From Massariosphaeria phaeospora (taxonomy: Eukaryota; Ascomycota; Dothideomycetes; Pleosporales): 64,000 nt of DNA. Below the pieces are notes generated by a model. The model made no database searches. It had not been told where the DNA came from and worked only from the letters and a program-made list of their open reading frames with translations. Where the stretch lies: NCBI GenBank assembly GCA_011032825.1, contig JAADJZ010000008.1, positions 1,364,001-1,428,000 on the forward strand, read 5' to 3'. The position numbers and the translations under genes are program-made. Positions within the stretch are counted from its first letter, which is position 1, and every line of letters starts with the position of its first letter. This document shows positions 16,909-24,566 of this stretch, piece by piece.

Positions 16909-17637
16909 ATGTTTTAACCAACTAACGCGTTATTACACTAACACGAAGAAAAACTTTAGCTTACTTTTAAAGCTTATAATTTTAGCTAATTCTAAAGCTA
17001 TTAAGCTGCTACTAGTGCTTTAACGTTAAACACTATACTCTTTCTAAACGCGCTAGAGAAATTCTATTTCGAGCTTAAATACAACTTATATTTTCAAAGC
17101 TTACTACAACTAAAAAGCAAACGATTATTTAATATATTCTTAACTGCTGTCTAAGGTAGGAGATATAGAAAATAAACTAGTAGCTGCGCAAAGTAAAGAG
17201 CTAGTAAGCAAAAACTAGACTAAGAGATTTGTAACGCGTTTAAGCGAGCTTAAAATAGCTTTCAATTAAGCAAAGAACTAGCAGAGAATACAACAAGAAA
17301 ATTCTAAAGTAATTAGCGCGTAGTTTAAGCTTGTTAAGAATACCAAAGCTAAGTACAGCATCTAGAATAATAATATACACAACTTTAACAAAACTAGCTT
17401 TTAAATAAGTGTTATTAAGTTTATAAAAGTTGTTATAGGCTTTTAAAAACGTACTCAACTTAATTTTATTTAGCTAGGCAATTGAGAGTAGGTAATAGTT
17501 ATTCAAAGCATCTGCGCTGCAAAGTACGCAATCTTGCTATTTATTATCTACAAAAAGCGCGTTTACATTTTAGCATAGTACAAAAAGAACTTTATACCTA
17601 GCAATTAAAAGCTTTTAGTTTCTAAGAACAGCTAGAC
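16909..17637 (+). pseudogene. type B transposase of B3, N-terminal half
   Basis: The frame starts at ATG 16909 and gives a helix-turn-helix region, then a DDE segment with FNKTSF near 17395 (FDETGF type, Asp to Asn). Stops are TAA/TAG. It breaks at the 8-bp hAT target site and continues at 23628. Joined through one copy of the target site, the total length is not a multiple of three, so at least one small indel exists. Confidence 0.8.
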
Positions 17638-17689
17638 TACGCTAGCGAATAGGTAGAAAGTACTTATTAATAGGTATAAGTTAAGTTAT

Positions 17690-17860
17690 AGGTCGCACAA
17701 ACTTTAAGTTAAAATTAAGTTATAGTTACTCTAGCGTAGGTAGAGGTTAGGTTAGAGTTATTAAAGCATTAAGTTATAGTTTAGTTAGAGTAATTAAAGC
17801 TTAGAGTTAAAGTTAAGTTAAAAGTTATATTTAAGTTATAAAGTTATGTGTTAGCTTAGA
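17690..17860. repeat. left subterminal repeat array of the hAT element
   Basis: Repeated short units of the form AAGTTA, TAGTTA and GAGTTA occur here, with the complementary array at about 23430-23615. hAT transposases bind short subterminal repeats, so these are probable binding sites (inference). The same array is compressed in all six MITEs. Just inside lie two copies of GTTATTACAG (17881-17890 and 17937-17946). Confidence 0.7.
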
Positions 17861-18104
17861 GAGTTGCTAAAGTTTAAAAAGTTATTACAGCTAGTTATTA
17901 CATTTAAGAACGCGCAAATTGTATTTACAAAGTTTTGTTATTACAGCTACTATTCACGTACAAAAACACAAGTAAAGTAAAAAAAGTTGTATTACTACAA
18001 ATATTAATTACAGTAGCGTAAAAGTCGAGCGCGCTTTTGTAGCGAAAGTAGCAAATTCTTTTCTTCTAAATTATTATTTAACAGAGTTATTCTTGATTGT
18101 AAAG

Positions 18105-18215
18105 GCCTAGATGTAAGCTTAGATGTAGGCCTAGATAACGAGCTAAGTATAAGCCTAAGTATAAGCTTAGGTATTAACCTAGATAACAAGCTAAGTGTAA
18201 GCGTAGATATAGGCC
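18105..18215. repeat. imperfect 12-bp tandem repeat in the transposase tail
   Basis: About nine degenerate copies of a 12-14 bp unit related to AGGCCTAGATGT or AAGCTTAGATGT lie in a row. On the minus strand they encode a run of Ser, Arg, Leu, Pro and Lys (for example LSRPTSKLTSRP). The length suggests an expandable C-terminal linker. Confidence 0.75.
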
Positions 18216-18830
18216 TAAAAGTAGAGTTTACATACTGCGCTTAAAAGTTAAGTAAGTTTTCAACTTCGTTACATAGTAGTTTCTTATTATCTGCTTTTGC
18301 AAACTAAGAAACGCTGTCTTGTTCTTTTTCTTAAGCAATATAGTTTTTTAATATTATAATTCGCTAAATTGTTTAGGCAGCAAGTTAGTGCTTTCTATTG
18401 CTAATAGCATTCTTAGCAACGTTAAATTTGCGCTTAACTCTAACTTAGGCAATTTGTACTACAAGTACATTTTTTGCAACTTGTAATAAACGTAAATACG
18501 TTTTTTCATTTACTTGCTACTATTTAAAAATATTAAAAGAAGCACTAGCGCGTACGCAGGCAATGCTTAGATAAGCTTTTCTTTTTTAGCAAGTTAAGCT
18601 CTTTTCTTTTTTTGTTTTGTTTAGGTTAATAGGTGAAAAACTGCTTGGCAGCAACTAAAGTAAAAGCTTTAGTTTTTAAAACTATTTACTACTCTAGAGT
18701 CTAGTTGTACAAAACGAAAAAATAAAAGTAAAAGCAAAGCAAGTATCGTCGTTATAGCAATTAAAGTAATCAAAAAACTATTCGTAGTAGGTGTGCTTGT
18801 TTTAATTATTTTAAGTTTCGTTTTAAACGC

Positions 18831-18873
18831 GCAGTTAGCATATAACTGTAATAAGTAACTGTAATAACTATAC
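18831..18873 (-). other. candidate intron of the hAT transposase sharing the common intron motif
   Basis: The minus-strand sequence starts GTATAGTTATTACAG and contains a second TTATTACAG and a branch-like GCTAAC. It resembles the introns of the neighbouring cargo genes. The 3' AG is not visible at the expected point, so its status as an intron is uncertain. Confidence 0.45.
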
Positions 18874-20989
18874 TTCGTAGGCCGTAAGCTTTTAGCTAGA
18901 GTTTAAAATAGTAGCATAATTAAATAAAAACTCTCGTTTATTGCTAGTTTTTCTATAATACTTGCTAAGTTTAGCTTTTTTTTTTATCTACAGCAGCTCG
19001 TACAACTGTAAGCTACTTAAAAGTATTTTAATTTTTTATGTCGTTGTTAAGTTCGTTTTGCATACTATTTAAAAAGTTAAAAAAATAGTAGATATATTAG
19101 ACTTGTAGCTTATAGTTTTTACTTAAAAAGTTTGTTGCGTTCTTAAAGTTTTTAAGCATATTAGTAATTAACTTTAAGTAGTACTATTTGTTTAGTGTTA
19201 ATTTTAGTTGCCTAAAGTCGCGAAAGTTTACTTTTGCTATATTTTTATTATCTAAGATACTGCTTGCACTAATTGTTATTTTAAGTGCAATTTCTTTTAC
19301 TAGCTATTTGTTAATAAATTTTTAAATTTTAAGTGCGCGCTTGCACATATTGTAAGTTAAATTCTATTGTATTTTAACGTTGCGAATAATAGACATTTGT
19401 TGTTTTAGTAGCAAGTGTAGTTGCGTAGCAATAAACCGCTTGTATTGTTAAAACAACAAATTAATTGCTATGCAGATAGCTTAAAGCTAGGTGTGTATTA
19501 AGCTGTAATAAAAGTATATAATAACGCACTATATACCTTGCAAAAAGAGTTTAAAACAAAGATATTTGCTTGCACGTTGCTTAAATAGCGTCTTTGTAGT
19601 ATTTTTTTTAGTTTAACGTTAGCACTTGCTAATGCTGCAAGCTTAAAGTGTAAAATAATATTTTAAACAACAAAGTTAATAATGTAAGCAAAATACAAGA
19701 TTAAGTTTTTTAATAAGCTTTAAAGTATGTTCTTTGCTTCTAGTTGCTGTTAAATAACACAACTAAGCGTTTTGTTTTTTTTAGCATTATTTGTAGTAAT
19801 TGCTAAAAAGCGTAATTTAATGCTAGTGTTTGAGAGTACTTGCAGTATATTAGCAGCTGCAGCAGCACTAGTATGTCTTTCGCGTAGAAAAATAAAATCT
19901 AGCAACTTCTTTTAAAGCTGCTAGTTGCAGTTAACGTAGTATCTTTTAACTACAAAGAAACTAAAATAATTAAAAGCAAACTACTTATCTATCGCAATTG
20001 AGATCTTAGTTAACTAGCTAATGTTATTAAGAAGTAATGCTTTAGCCTCTTCAAATCGTTTATAAAACATTTCTTAAAATTTGAATTAGCTAATACTTGA
20101 AATATTAGGTTAAAAAAATTAAAGAAATTGCTAGAATAAAGGCCGCTTAATTGTTTAAAAAAACTAGTTGCTATATATAACTACTCGTACTAGTTCTTGT
20201 TTAAAAGCTTAAGTTAAATATAGTAGTACAATAGTAGTAAATTAAAGTTAACGTAGTGCTAGCTGTAGATAAGGTTAAGAGTAAACAAAAGCAAGCGTTC
20301 TTTAGCAGGTTCTAGATTCAAGGTAGTTAAGTAAGTGTTTAGTTTTAATAGTTTTAACTGCTAGGTGCTAAAGAGCAAAGCCGCAATTATAGCAGAATAC
20401 GTAAAAGTAGCTATTACTAGAATTAGCAGCTTTTTTAAACTATAGCTATACTTAACTAGTGCGTACAGCAGAGTTCTATCGCGAATTTGCTATTTTTAAG
20501 TCTAAAGCCTACTTAGTAGAACTCTACTACATTTTCTACGCAGTTACGACTGCCTTTCGTTCTGTATTATCTTTAATATGCGTAGAAAAATATTTTACTA
20601 GATGTAGTTTATTTCTTTTTTCTCTTTAGACGAATTGCTTAGCGTTGAATTTAAATAAACGAACAAGTAGCGAAAGTTCTGCTATGTTTATAACAAAAGG
20701 TATAGTACAAAAGCGCAGGTACTGTAATAATAAACTATAATAATTAGTGTTAGAGTAGACTAAAAATAGAGAATAGGTACATTGCCAAAGAAGAACACGC
20801 AGATTGTTAAAAGAAAACAGAATATGCTTTTTTGCTTGCGAAATATTGCTAACGTTCAAGCGCAAAGGCTAAGGCAGTAATGCAACTAAAATTAGAGCTA
20901 GAATTAAAGCCGCAGTAGTAGCGCTTTAATTTTACAGTTCTAATTGAGTTATACTTGCTAATTTGTTAATTGCAATGTTATGCACGTTT

Positions 20990-22385
20990 TAGGCTGCGTT
21001 ATAAATAGTAGATACTAGCTATGTTTATACTAGCAACGTTTTAATTTACATAAAAAGTAAAGAGCCTTAGGTTTGCGCTTCTTTATAAGCGTTACTATCG
21101 TTAGAAAAACTTTTTTAATCTAAATACTCTACTAACTTAGTTTGCTCTACTACTTTAGTTTGCTCTACTACTTTATCTACTACCTCATTTTACTCTTTAT
21201 TCTTATTCTTATTTTCAACTTTTTTTTTATTTTTACTAGAGGACTCGTTTGCTTCTGCTAACGCTTTTTTCTACTAATTTTTTATTTTATATTCGTCTTT
21301 ATACTTATTGTAGAACGCATTAATTTCTAAGTTGCTACTTGCTTCTTTTTTACACTTATCAATTGTAGGCGCTAGAATATACAAGCTGTTGATATTTTTA
21401 TAAGCATCGTTGCTGTTAACGCGTAGTTCGAGAAAAAGCGTAAGCTCGCGTAAGCTAGTGCAGTTAGTATAAGTATGTAATAAACTACTGTAATAACTTA
21501 CTTCTAGTCTTTAGCAGTTACTAGTGTTAGATTCTCTAAAGTCAACGTCTTTACAAACTCTTGCTAATCTATTTTAGCTTTTTTGTTTTTAAACGAATTA
21601 TTCTTTAACTTAGCTAATTTGTCTAAGTAGATACGTTGCCTAATTCTATTAGTAGCTTCGCTAGCGCCAAATATTCGCGACATTAGCTAATTCTTAATTT
21701 TTCTCTTGTTTTTTAGTGCTTTGGCATTTTGTTCAAGAATGTTTCTGTGCTGTTAAAAGTTAACATTGTAATAAATACAAGCTTACTTTTTATAGGCAAG
21801 GCTAAGTTTTGCTTAAAGCTACTTAACTGCGTATTGTAAGTACAATAACGTGATAAACTAATATAATAACTTACTACTTTTCTGTGCGCGGTAGCGTTGC
21901 TTATTTAAAAGCTTAAGTTTAGTTGCTAACTGCTTTTTCTAGTCGTGCGTAGACAACGCAGTAAACTTTTCTTTCACTTTAAGCTTCTTTTTAAGCTAGT
22001 ATTTTGCTTGCTAATTTTCTGCACTAGCATTTGCAATAGCTTTTTCTTTAGCATTTAGGTAAGCTGTTTGATTTCTCTAAGCAGTTGCGCAAGCAGTATT
22101 GCTTAATTAACTCTTAGACAGTAGCTTGTAATGTGTAGAGCGCTTTTTTTGTAATCTAACGCAACTGCAATTCGCTAGTACGCTAAGAACTTCGTGCTTT
22201 TTAAACTTAAAGCTCTAAGTTTGTTAGCAGATGCTGTAATAAACTTCTGTAATAATTACATTTGTAAGCGCTTTCTACTTCGCTAGCTTAAACCTAGTCG
22301 AAACTTCAATTTTGTAAAGCGGAAGCAACTTATTATCAAGCTCGTAGTCTATCTCGTTGTTAAGCTTTTGCTTAATTGCAGCCAT
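20990..22385 (-). pseudogene. unrecognised four-exon cargo gene with acidic C-terminal tract
   Basis: The start ATG has its complement at 22383-22385 (MAAIKQKLNNEIDYELD). Exons are 22260-22385, 21875-22214, 21502-21826 and about 20990-21454. Introns at 22215-22259, 21827-21874 and 21455-21501 start GTAATT or GTAAGT and end AG; splicing keeps one frame of roughly 430 codons. The middle is Lys/Gln-rich and looks coiled-coil. The C-terminus has a KNKKKVENKNKNKE tract that, because G-to-A turns Glu/Asp into Lys/Asn, was probably strongly acidic. In-frame stops are TAA/TAG. No family was recognised. It is transcribed away from the H3-like gene, about 295 bp between starts. A histone-chaperone-like role is speculation from the acidic tract and neighbour. 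Confidence 0.65.
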
Positions 22386-22680
22386 CGTATTTGTAATAAA
22401 TGTAAGTAATAATGAAGCTAGTTGTAGTACGTAGGTAGGTAAAAGCAGAAAGTAAAGTAGCAAAAAGTTAGGTAGCGAATTTACAAGCTAGATTTTGTGT
22501 AGAGTAGCTTGTGCGCTGCTGCAAAAGCTGCAGCCTTAGCTAGCGCTTCGCTGCTAGCTACTCAAAACACGCACCTTTGCTGCAGCCTCTGCAGCTTCCT
22601 TACCTGCCGTAATTATTACAAATAATTATTACAACTTTCTACTCTCTACACTACACCTATTACGCATTAATTCTTTTGCA
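22386..22680. promoter_or_regulatory. divergent intergenic region of the two hAT cargo genes
   Basis: This interval of about 295 bp separates the starts of the minus-strand gene and the plus-strand H3-like gene, so it should hold both promoters. It contains GC-richer blocks with CTGCAGCC/GCTGCAGC repeats (about 22510-22600) and an ATTATTACAA repeat at 22612-22640. No TATA box can be assigned with confidence in such AT-rich sequence. Confidence 0.45.
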
Positions 22681-22846
22681 ATAGCCCGCACCAAGCAAAC
22701 TAACTGCTACTACTTTGCTACTAGCGGCAAGGTTCCGCGAAAGCTTTTCGCAGCAAAAGCAGCTCGCAAATCTAGCAATCTGTACAAGAACAAGAAGAAA
22801 CTAACAACAAGTAGTGTAAAGAAGCTTTACTGCTAAAAGCAAAGAA

Positions 22847-22895
22847 GTAAGTTATTACAGCAGTTAATTGCAGCTTTGTTTCTAACAACATGCAG
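22847..22895 (+). other. intron 1 of the H3-like gene (49 nt)
   Basis: It starts GTAAGTTATTACAGCAG, has branch site CTAAC and ends ATGCAG. Removing it restores the H3 reading across the junction, with the codon ACT made from 22846 and 22896-22897. Its first 14 bases are identical to those of the third intron of the divergent cargo gene. Confidence 0.85.
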
Positions 22896-23078
22896 CTGTT
22901 GCGTTGCGCAAAATTTAACGATACTAGAAATTAACTAAGCTCTTTATGCGCAAACTGCTATTTAGTCGGCTAGTTCGCAAGATTGCGCAAGAGTTTAAGC
23001 CTAATCTGCGCTTTCAAGCTAGTGCAATTGAAGCTATACAAGAAGTAACGAAGGCTTTTCTAATTAGCATCTTCGAAA

Positions 23079-23123
23079 GTATAGCTTTCTACCTGTTGCT
23101 AGGTGCAAAGCTAACTTTAACAA
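23079..23123 (+). other. intron 2 of the H3-like gene (45 nt)
   Basis: It starts GTATAG, has a GCTAAC branch site, and ends CAA where CAG is expected (a G-to-A change). Splicing here turns FE plus an insert into FE-N-TN, matching H3 FEDTN. It lacks the shared TTATTACAG motif. Confidence 0.75.
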
Positions 23124-23429
23124 ATACCAATATTAACGCTATATACGCGAAATAGGTAATAATTAACACAAGAAACATAAATCTAGCACAAAGATACTAC
23201 AAGAAGTACAAGAAAAGTTCGTAGCAAACGTAAAAGCTAAAGTTTAGTTGCTACTTATTCTAGCAGTATAAAGCTATAATGATTTTGAATTTTCTAGCGA
23301 TACCTAGCGTAGACGTTGCTTTGTACTTAGCTATTAAAATACAACTAATTCTACGCTGTAATAACAATCCGTAATAAACTTAAGCAACTTGTACTTTGCT
23401 AACGTTAAAATACAACATGTAAACTCTAA

Positions 23430-23620
23430 ATATAATAACCTAACTATAACTCAACTATAACCTAGAGCCTATGCGAGATAGCTCAACTTTAACCTAAAGT
23501 TTGTGCGACTCAACTTAACTATAACCTTGTACTAGCGTTAAAAGATTGAGTATATAAGTAGAGTTGAGTTAGAGTTATAAAAAAAGCAACTTAACTTTAA
23601 CCTAACCTCTACCTATTCGC
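23430..23620. repeat. right subterminal repeat array of the hAT element
   Basis: Complementary units TAACTT, TAACTA and CAACTT are repeated up to the terminal ACCTATTCGCTAGCCTA. Inside the array, CTGTAATAAC at 23356-23365 is the inverse of the GTTATTACAG motif near the left end. Confidence 0.7.
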
Positions 23621-23627
23621 TAGCCTA

Positions 23628-24566
23628 AGCTAGACAAACAACGCTTTTAGTTTTAAATAGTTAAAGCATTTTAACGCGCATACAAAAGCGCGTTAAGTAG
23701 AGAAGTATTAGCTACTTATTTTGAATAGCTATAAGAGCTACTAATTTTAGAATTTTAAAAACTATTGCTTTAAGTACAAGATTTTTACGCTTTGCATGCT
23801 AGCTTATTTATTTTATATTCTTTAGCTGCTAAATGTAGTTTGCTTTTCGTTGCTAAAGCTAAAGTACTTTTAACGCGTTTAAAACTTAGCGCGCTAGCGC
23901 GTTTTTTATATTAACAAGAAAAGCTTTCTGCTAGCTTTTAGAAACGCGTTTTTTAAAGTATTTACAACAAAGAACTGCAAAAAAGCTTTTAAAGTTTTAA
24001 AGCTAGTTTCTATTAACGCGCAAGTAGTACTTAATTGTTTTAAAGTACAGCTGTGTACTTTGCTACTACTTTTTGCACTAGAAACGCCGTAGTAGTTAAA
24101 AACTCCAAGCAATACGCTTGAATTTGAATCGCGATCAAAGCTTATTACTACTAAGCTTAGTTTCTCTCTATTATTTCTAAAGAATAGAGTTAATTAGCTT
24201 GTTAAAGAGTTCTACTAGATAGCCTATTAGGTTAAGCTAATGCGCAATCGAATCTCTAGCTTTAAAAAAACTATTAAAGAAGCAACAAAAAGAAAATTAC
24301 AAAAACAAAAGCGAATTTAAATAGGTAGCACAATAGAGTATAGTAATAAATTAGCGCAAGTAGCTGCTAAAGCGTCTACAGCACTTTAGCTATTAAAAAA
24401 AGCGCGTAGTAAAAAGAGTTAAGAAAGAGCACAACTAGCTCTACGACGCTGTAAGAACTGTAGTAATACAAAACACAATGCTCAAACTTATTAAAAGAAT
24501 ACAAAAAAAGCTTTTGAATCTAAAGCTAGCACGACGTACGCAGGTTTCTTGTTTAATAGCAATTAA
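23628..24566 (+). pseudogene. type B transposase of B3, C-terminal half
   Basis: The reading resumes after the hAT and runs to TAA 24564-24566. It shows the DDE end, a Lys/Arg-rich linker and a knuckle CKNCSNTKHNAQT whose last Cys is now Tyr. The minus-strand open stretch at 23906-24112 is only its antisense shadow. Confidence 0.85.

Follow-up and report, generated by a model that had tools for sequence, protein, structure and literature searches.

Histone H3 genes carried by fungal hAT transposons have been described in two groups. Manning 2013 (PMC3538342) reported from Pyrenophora tritici-repentis (Ptr) a 5.6-kb hAT with a transposase, a central open reading frame and an H3-like gene (here H3L) whose product has tail insertions and for which there are expressed sequence tags. 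The Figure 5 legend of that paper names the H3L protein PTRG_00559.1. Dhillon 2019 (PMC6710886) described hATs of Pseudocercospora fijiensis, about 9.5 kb long, that contain an intronless H3, together with comparable events in five relatives, and stated that the hAT consensus sequences of these six species lack similarity to that of Ptr. A related case is that of the TET/JBP dioxygenase genes reported in fungal transposons, which are likely anti-silencing cargo (Kojima 2025, PMC12730594). The element considered here occupies positions 17638 to 23627 of a 64,000-nucleotide stretch (hereafter, the window) of Massariosphaeria phaeospora, a Pleosporalean fungus with a 42-Mb genome (contig JAADJZ010000008.1, positions 1,364,001 to 1,428,000). 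It is a copy, damaged by repeat-induced point mutation (RIP), of a three-gene hAT that carries a genuine H3-like gene between its ends and, judging from sequence divergence, was recently amplified. The original prediction took a fungal hAT with H3 cargo to be undescribed; that was mistaken, as Manning 2013 and Dhillon 2019 show. The kind is already known, and what is new is the host, an intact copy and an H3 tail lacking lysine 9 (K9).

The Ptr element resembles ours in its three-gene anatomy, its size (about 5.6 kb against 6.0 kb here), the insertions in its H3 tail and its Pleosporales host; copies in the Ptr reference isolate are reported as almost identical and little mutated (PMC3538342), whereas in M. 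phaeospora one copy is intact and the rest of those examined are RIPped. The Mycosphaerellaceae elements, typified by that of P. fijiensis, share the 8-bp target-site duplication (TSD), the H3-like cargo and heavy RIP, but are described as bearing one or two copies of an intronless H3 retrocopy and no other domain (PMC6710886); in M. phaeospora H3L has two introns, the element also holds a central gene, one copy is intact, and the length of 5990-6044 bp falls well short of 9.5 kb. The TET/JBP carriers are likewise DNA transposons, hATs among them, with a chromatin or epigenetic gene thought to counter silencing; their cargo is an enzyme acting on DNA methylation (PMC12730594), ours a histone. 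Manning 2013 asked whether, and why, selection would keep a captured gene such as a histone in a transposon (PMC3538342), a question to which we found no printed answer among open-licence PMC papers. The words "lysine", "H3K9" and Massariosphaeria are absent from the main texts of both H3 studies (PMC3538342, PMC6710886).

Anatomy and copies of the element

The ends of the window copy are exact. The element, 5990 bp long and complete by its TSD and inverted ends, is flanked by the perfect 8-bp duplication AGCTAGAC at 17630..17637 and 23628..23635, as had been predicted, and is bounded by a left terminal inverted repeat (TIR) at 17638..17656 (+ strand, TACGCTAGCGAATAGGTAG) and a right one at 23609..23627 (reverse strand, TAGGCTAGCGAATAGGTAG). 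Its membership of the hAT superfamily rests on the 8-bp duplication, on the short TIRs (TACGCTGGCGAATGGGTAG and TAGGCTGGCGAATGGGTAG in the intact copy) and on the C-terminal dimerisation region of the intact transposase (Dimer_Tnp_hAT, PF05699, 4e-16), residues 645-751 of which are matched by the best Hermes transposase chain (3.9e-14). When the two 300-bp flanks were joined to reconstruct the empty site, the junction was unbroken in all 40 matches scored (92-96% identity; 752 first-look candidates), which bears out the predicted empty target site elsewhere in the genome; the window element is therefore a clean insertion into a repeat, which the original prediction took to be pogo type B.

Three gene relics lie between the ends. 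The transposase relic that the original prediction placed in the element is indeed there, on the - strand (18004..20685; exons 20685-19537, 19486-18874 and 18822-18004, mapped from the intact 863-aa protein). It is followed by a central gene relic, also on the - strand (21067..22385; exons 22385-22260, 22214-21875, 21826-21502 and 21454-21067, mapped from the intact copy); the splice sites of both genes are predictions, picked at GT-AG sites without transcripts. The H3-like gene occupies the + strand at 22681..23233, and alignment to the intact copy fixes its three predicted exons at 22681-22846, 22896-23078 and 23124-23233. Even in its damaged state, a piece taken from exons 2 and 3, with intron 2 read through and one stop taken as X, matches the Pfam Histone profile PF00125 at 2.6e-12.

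A genome search with the 563-bp left end, in which 40 of 335 candidates were scored, gave at least 59 matches. Twenty genomic regions, one further region and the window were sampled. Ten of the 20 regions hold a distinct full-length element and nine only interrupted or truncated pieces; the last, L011, repeats the L015 element beside one interrupted element and was left out of the full-length set. In L011 (C2:654500-664499), one family member is apparently interrupted by another, full-length one. The resulting set of 12 (the window, L009, L012, L014, L015, L017, L018, L020, L024, L025, L026 and L029) measures 5990-6044 bp and can be aligned end to end. In all 12, the same two ends enclose a transposase, a central gene and H3L, which is the anatomy described for Ptr and the outcome that the prediction had made its check. 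Together with the clean insertion site in the window, this upholds the claim that the H3-like gene moves with the transposon. Its opposite, a histone piece inserted separately inside the hAT, is ruled out by the same position of H3L in every one of these copies. The TSDs are identical in four of the 12, differ by RIP-type transitions only in another four, and do not match in the remaining four.

One copy has escaped RIP. It lies on contig C23 (L029:289-6289) between perfect duplications, AATGTACC, and all three of its genes are open, with products of 863 aa (transposase), 392 aa (central protein) and 152 aa (H3L). Measured in 500-bp blocks, the G+C content of this copy is 40-53%; that of the window element, measured per kb, is 27-38%. 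The window element is 83% identical to the intact copy over the full length and differs almost exclusively by C>T or G>A. Across the 11 RIPped full-length copies, 818-1219 such changes over 6 kb stand against 2-11 reverse transitions and 1-14 transversions; the damage is most frequent at CpA (0.45-0.56 of sites, compared with 0.21-0.39 in the other three contexts). With differences from the intact copy so nearly confined to C>T and G>A, the 11 look like the product of one recent burst that was RIPped afterwards, and the L029 copy is the natural un-RIPped form of the element. That a single intact copy, annotated as histone H3, survives might instead mark it as a domesticated host variant that happens to lie in a transposon. 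We find this scarcely credible: the copy is enclosed by a full element that has a TSD of its own and whose transposase is open, and the canonical host H3 gene (L030) is elsewhere.

A hunt for a second, cargo-less hAT family returned rows that, where placeable, resemble copies of the H3L-carrying family (53 of 221 candidates scored). Several copies, among them L035, L037, L038 and L050, apparently form an older subfamily with the common transversions T5251A and C5563A (element coordinates). At G000:C34:1043500-1049000 the left-end matches are pairwise mirrored around ~1046.5 kb, a pattern suggestive of nested elements within a large inverted duplication. Three partial histone-fold proteins at NCBI (P0001, P0003 and P0004; contigs C5 and C49) look like annotation artefacts from RIP-damaged H3L copies.

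The original prediction saw its ends shared with six miniature inverted-repeat elements. In the window, three left-end matches were seen; genome-wide, the terminal sequence of the intact element is shared by a short non-autonomous family represented by L055:326-718 (393 bp with its outer bases); a 391-bp query from L055 was matched over its full length at 41 places or more, with 83-100% identity (40 of 179 candidates scored). Seven short copies, the query included, are identical over the 391 bp, which points to their recent mobilisation, presumably by the transposase of the H3L-carrying family. Dhillon 2019 gives a minimum length for RIP of ~400 bp (PMC6710886), and a length just under this limit would explain the undamaged look of L055 and its identical copies.

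A paired motif, TGTGATAA-N5-TGTGATAA, occurs at ten sites in the intact element (L029 533-6039, 1-2 mismatches allowed; mean of 0.06 and maximum of 1 in 300 shuffles). All ten are in noncoding DNA, which makes up 30% of the element; the places include introns, five in all, of the transposase and central genes. The exact pair is also found inside short non-autonomous copies. In the window, a RIPped left subterminal site (17882..17902, - strand) is nearly mirrored by a RIPped right one (23357..23377, + strand), and the eight internal sites comprise one in transposase intron 2 (18847..18867, + strand), those at 19504, 20723, 21476, 21849, 22235 and 22392, and a reversed one at 22613. The motif is possibly a transposase-binding or intron-associated site.

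The H3-like protein and its missing lysine 9

The intact H3L, spliced from contig C23, is identical to a 152-aa protein annotated at NCBI as "histone H3" (P0002), and its match to Pfam Histone PF00125 (3.1e-36) identifies a histone fold. Compared with host H3, it is identical at 64 of the 86 core positions (residues 45-130) and at 31 of the 44 in the tail. The tail keeps R2, K4, T6, R8, T11-K14, P16-K18, K23, K27, S28 and K36. Between R8 and T11, where canonical H3 has K9-S10, H3L reads H-H-P-A, such that N-R-H-H-P-A-T replaces A-R-K-S-T and the ARKS-motif lysine is gone; all eight other lysines up to residue 42 are retained. Residues are also inserted downstream of the K27 region, and the C-terminus is altered. 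CENP-A/CenH3 proteins have a divergent tail and a longer loop 1, whereas the H3L tail starts ARTKQT and its core aligns to host H3 free of gaps. A structure model of H3L was too poor for use (mean predicted local distance difference test score of 54.8).

The absence of K9 is a property of the family sample as well as of the intact copy. An alignment of RIPped H3L copies, a subset of those in the genome from which matches shorter than 200 bp were dropped, has 37 rows representing 36 distinct copies (one locus appears twice), and none of these 36, nor the intact copy, has a lysine between R8 and T11. Codons 9 and 10, CAC CAC in the intact copy, are TAC TAC in the 11 RIPped copies read letter by letter (22708..22713, + strand, in the window), and all 37 rows read Tyr-Tyr. 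At the codon level, TAC TAC is explained by RIP of CAC CAC; RIP of a lysine codon could not yield it.

H3L is also well separated from the present host gene. Introns interrupt host H3 after coding nucleotides 25 and 361 and H3L after 166 and 349, so that H3L cannot be a simple genomic duplicate of the present host gene together with its introns. The nonsynonymous divergence between the two (dN) is 0.24 and the synonymous divergence (dS) 1.74, for a ratio of 0.14 (0.08 in the core, 0.17 in the tail); assigning half of dS to the host branch would bring the ratio on the H3L branch nearer 0.3, still well below 1. Transversions fall at codon positions 1, 2 and 3 in the proportion 20:9:43. This third-position excess and the low dN/dS indicate that H3L diverged as a working protein, be it in the element or before its capture. 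No close relative of H3L was found elsewhere among the 120 matches listed from 7991 best-word candidates scored, a search that a diverged relative could escape; similarly, a word-filtered search for the H3L tail and the central gene outside M. phaeospora, liable to miss diverged sequences, returned no relative beyond ordinary H3 tails. The other database matches looked at were ordinary or odd H3s.

These data bear on a rival account of the cargo, passenger transduplication, in which an H3 gene was captured by accident, plays no role for the element and lost K9 by drift. Manning 2013 indeed allows that genes in such elements "may have undergone drift" (PMC3538342), and Dhillon 2019 expects RIPped copies to be without function (PMC6710886). 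Stops are present in all 36 RIPped H3L copies examined, transversions among copies show no codon-position bias and other odd H3 sequences in databases lack K9 too. Drift does not sit easily, however, with amino-acid divergence from host H3 that has stayed low while synonymous divergence neared saturation, with the retention of the eight other lysines, with an intact H3L frame open across both introns, or with similar cargo in two other published groups. On balance we regard an idle passenger as rather doubtful.

A K9-less histone and the silencing machinery

In Neurospora, DIM-5 methylates H3K9, and HP1 reads the mark and recruits DIM-2 (PMC3248561). Adhvaryu et al. 2011 (PMC3248561) found nine H3 tail residues whose substitution is lethal in this fungus. 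They further reported the effects of altered H3 genes introduced ectopically beside wild-type H3: resistant colonies appeared in 3/8 transformations with K9L and likewise with K9R (3/3 hypomethylated for either), in 5/8 with S10A (5/5 hypomethylated), in 5/6 with T11A (5/5), in 5/7 with a +G13 spacing insertion (3/5) and in none of 6 with each of K4L, K27L, S28A and K36A. In vitro, K9L, R8A and G12P abolished DIM-5 activity. The effect of K9 alleles is discussed in that paper as semi-dominant, as if the altered H3 "poisoned" the machinery. Like H3L, the hH3-K9L and hH3-K9R alleles are extra K9-less H3 genes beside a wild-type one; they are laboratory constructs, whereas H3L is natural, is changed at other sites as well and has tail insertions (PMC3248561).

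H3L retains eight of the nine residues lethal to substitute in Neurospora (K4, T11, G12, G13, K14, K27, S28 and K36) and loses K9 only; besides K9, it is without S10 and has a changed local spacing. On the host side, M. phaeospora has an open gene with Pre-SET and SET domains (DIM-5-like, L064). It also has three loci with C5 DNA methylase genes, and at one of these the product bears a BAH domain, as DIM-2 does.

From the Neurospora K9-mutant effects, the eight lethal residues that H3L keeps and the silencing genes of the host, we tentatively propose, as a reading that we place somewhat below an even chance, that H3L is a natural "poison" H3 weakening H3K9-methylation silencing while the element transposes. 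Also in its favour are the presence of H3L in each of the 12 full-length elements examined, the lack of K9 in the intact copy and in the 36 RIPped ones aligned, the divergence from host H3 as a working protein and the recent activity suggested by the seven identical short copies. H3L would be expressed while the element is active and built into nucleosomes beside host H3, possibly with the acidic central protein as its loading factor. There it could not be methylated by the DIM-5-like enzyme of the host, and K9-less nucleosomes would break up arrays of H3K9me3 and HP1. Heterochromatin and DNA-methylation silencing would be weakened semi-dominantly, as by the laboratory-made Neurospora mutants, giving the element time to transpose before RIP destroyed most copies. 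We think that such an effect, if real, helps in vegetative bursts of transposition and loses to RIP at meiosis.

Another active role for H3L is conceivable in which K9 is irrelevant. As a structural helper acting with the central protein, H3L would be of direct help in transposition: it might, for instance, package DNA that has been excised or has just been inserted, or provide histone at times other than S phase. That H3L accompanies the transposase and the central gene in each of the 12 full-length copies examined fits this idea, as does the composition of the central protein, the last 130 residues of which include 53 acidic and five basic ones. Such an acidic tail recalls, in our estimation, those of histone chaperones, and a role for the central protein as histone loader is a guess. 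This protein has nothing above the Pfam cut-off, no PDB match and no database relative in a word-filtered search, hence no match to a chaperone in any of them, and direct help in transposition leaves the missing K9 without a reason; we consider it improbable.

A number of observations weigh against the proposed interference with silencing. K9 is present in 201 of 211 recognisable tail starts and absent from ten, P0002 included, in a sample of 219 proteins that was drawn from searches, is rich in odd H3s and has 23 proteins without a recognisable start. K9-less H3-like proteins thus occur also where no transposon involvement is known; the absence is rare, not unique, and this base rate weakens the K9 argument a little. 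If a single lysine were lost among the eight within residues 1-37, the chance of its being K9 is 1 in 8. Host H3 has an intron within codon 8, adjoining the K9 codon and just where H3L differs, and the K9 change might have started as an intron-junction accident. Since +G13 had no significant effect on DIM-5 activity in vitro (PMC3248561), the altered spacing of H3L, by analogy, need not matter by itself. The low dN/dS could have built up in a host paralogue before capture, and the estimate is rough, with dS near saturation and partly owed to the host branch. Selection within the burst is not visible, transversions among the 11 RIPped copies being few and without codon-position bias (the counts at positions 1, 2 and 3 are 13:9:13 for the transposase, 8:8:6 for the central gene and 0:0:2 for H3L). 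The chief objection is that, with stops in every RIPped H3L copy examined, the histone gives no lasting protection: it has not saved the element's own copies from RIP.

The nine other K9-less tail starts in the sample are those of P0024, P0034, P0042, P0049, P0086, P0179, P0184, P0185 and P0197. That P0002 should be the sole K9-less H3 is therefore rejected; it is so just among 22 chosen H3s.

That H3-carrying fungal hATs are weapons, not accidents, inhibiting H3K9 methylation semi-dominantly through a K9-stripped H3 that is kept by selection and provided with a loading partner, we hold to be unlikely on present evidence. For the M. phaeospora element, the absence of K9 from H3L and the published effects of K9-less H3 in Neurospora sharpen the idea of a silencing role and suggest a directly testable way in which the element may resist silencing. 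The missing lysine thereby makes a concrete and cheaply testable question of whether a transposon's own histone poisons the mark that silences it, one that can draw on an intact natural copy and on an existing, well-built assay in Neurospora.

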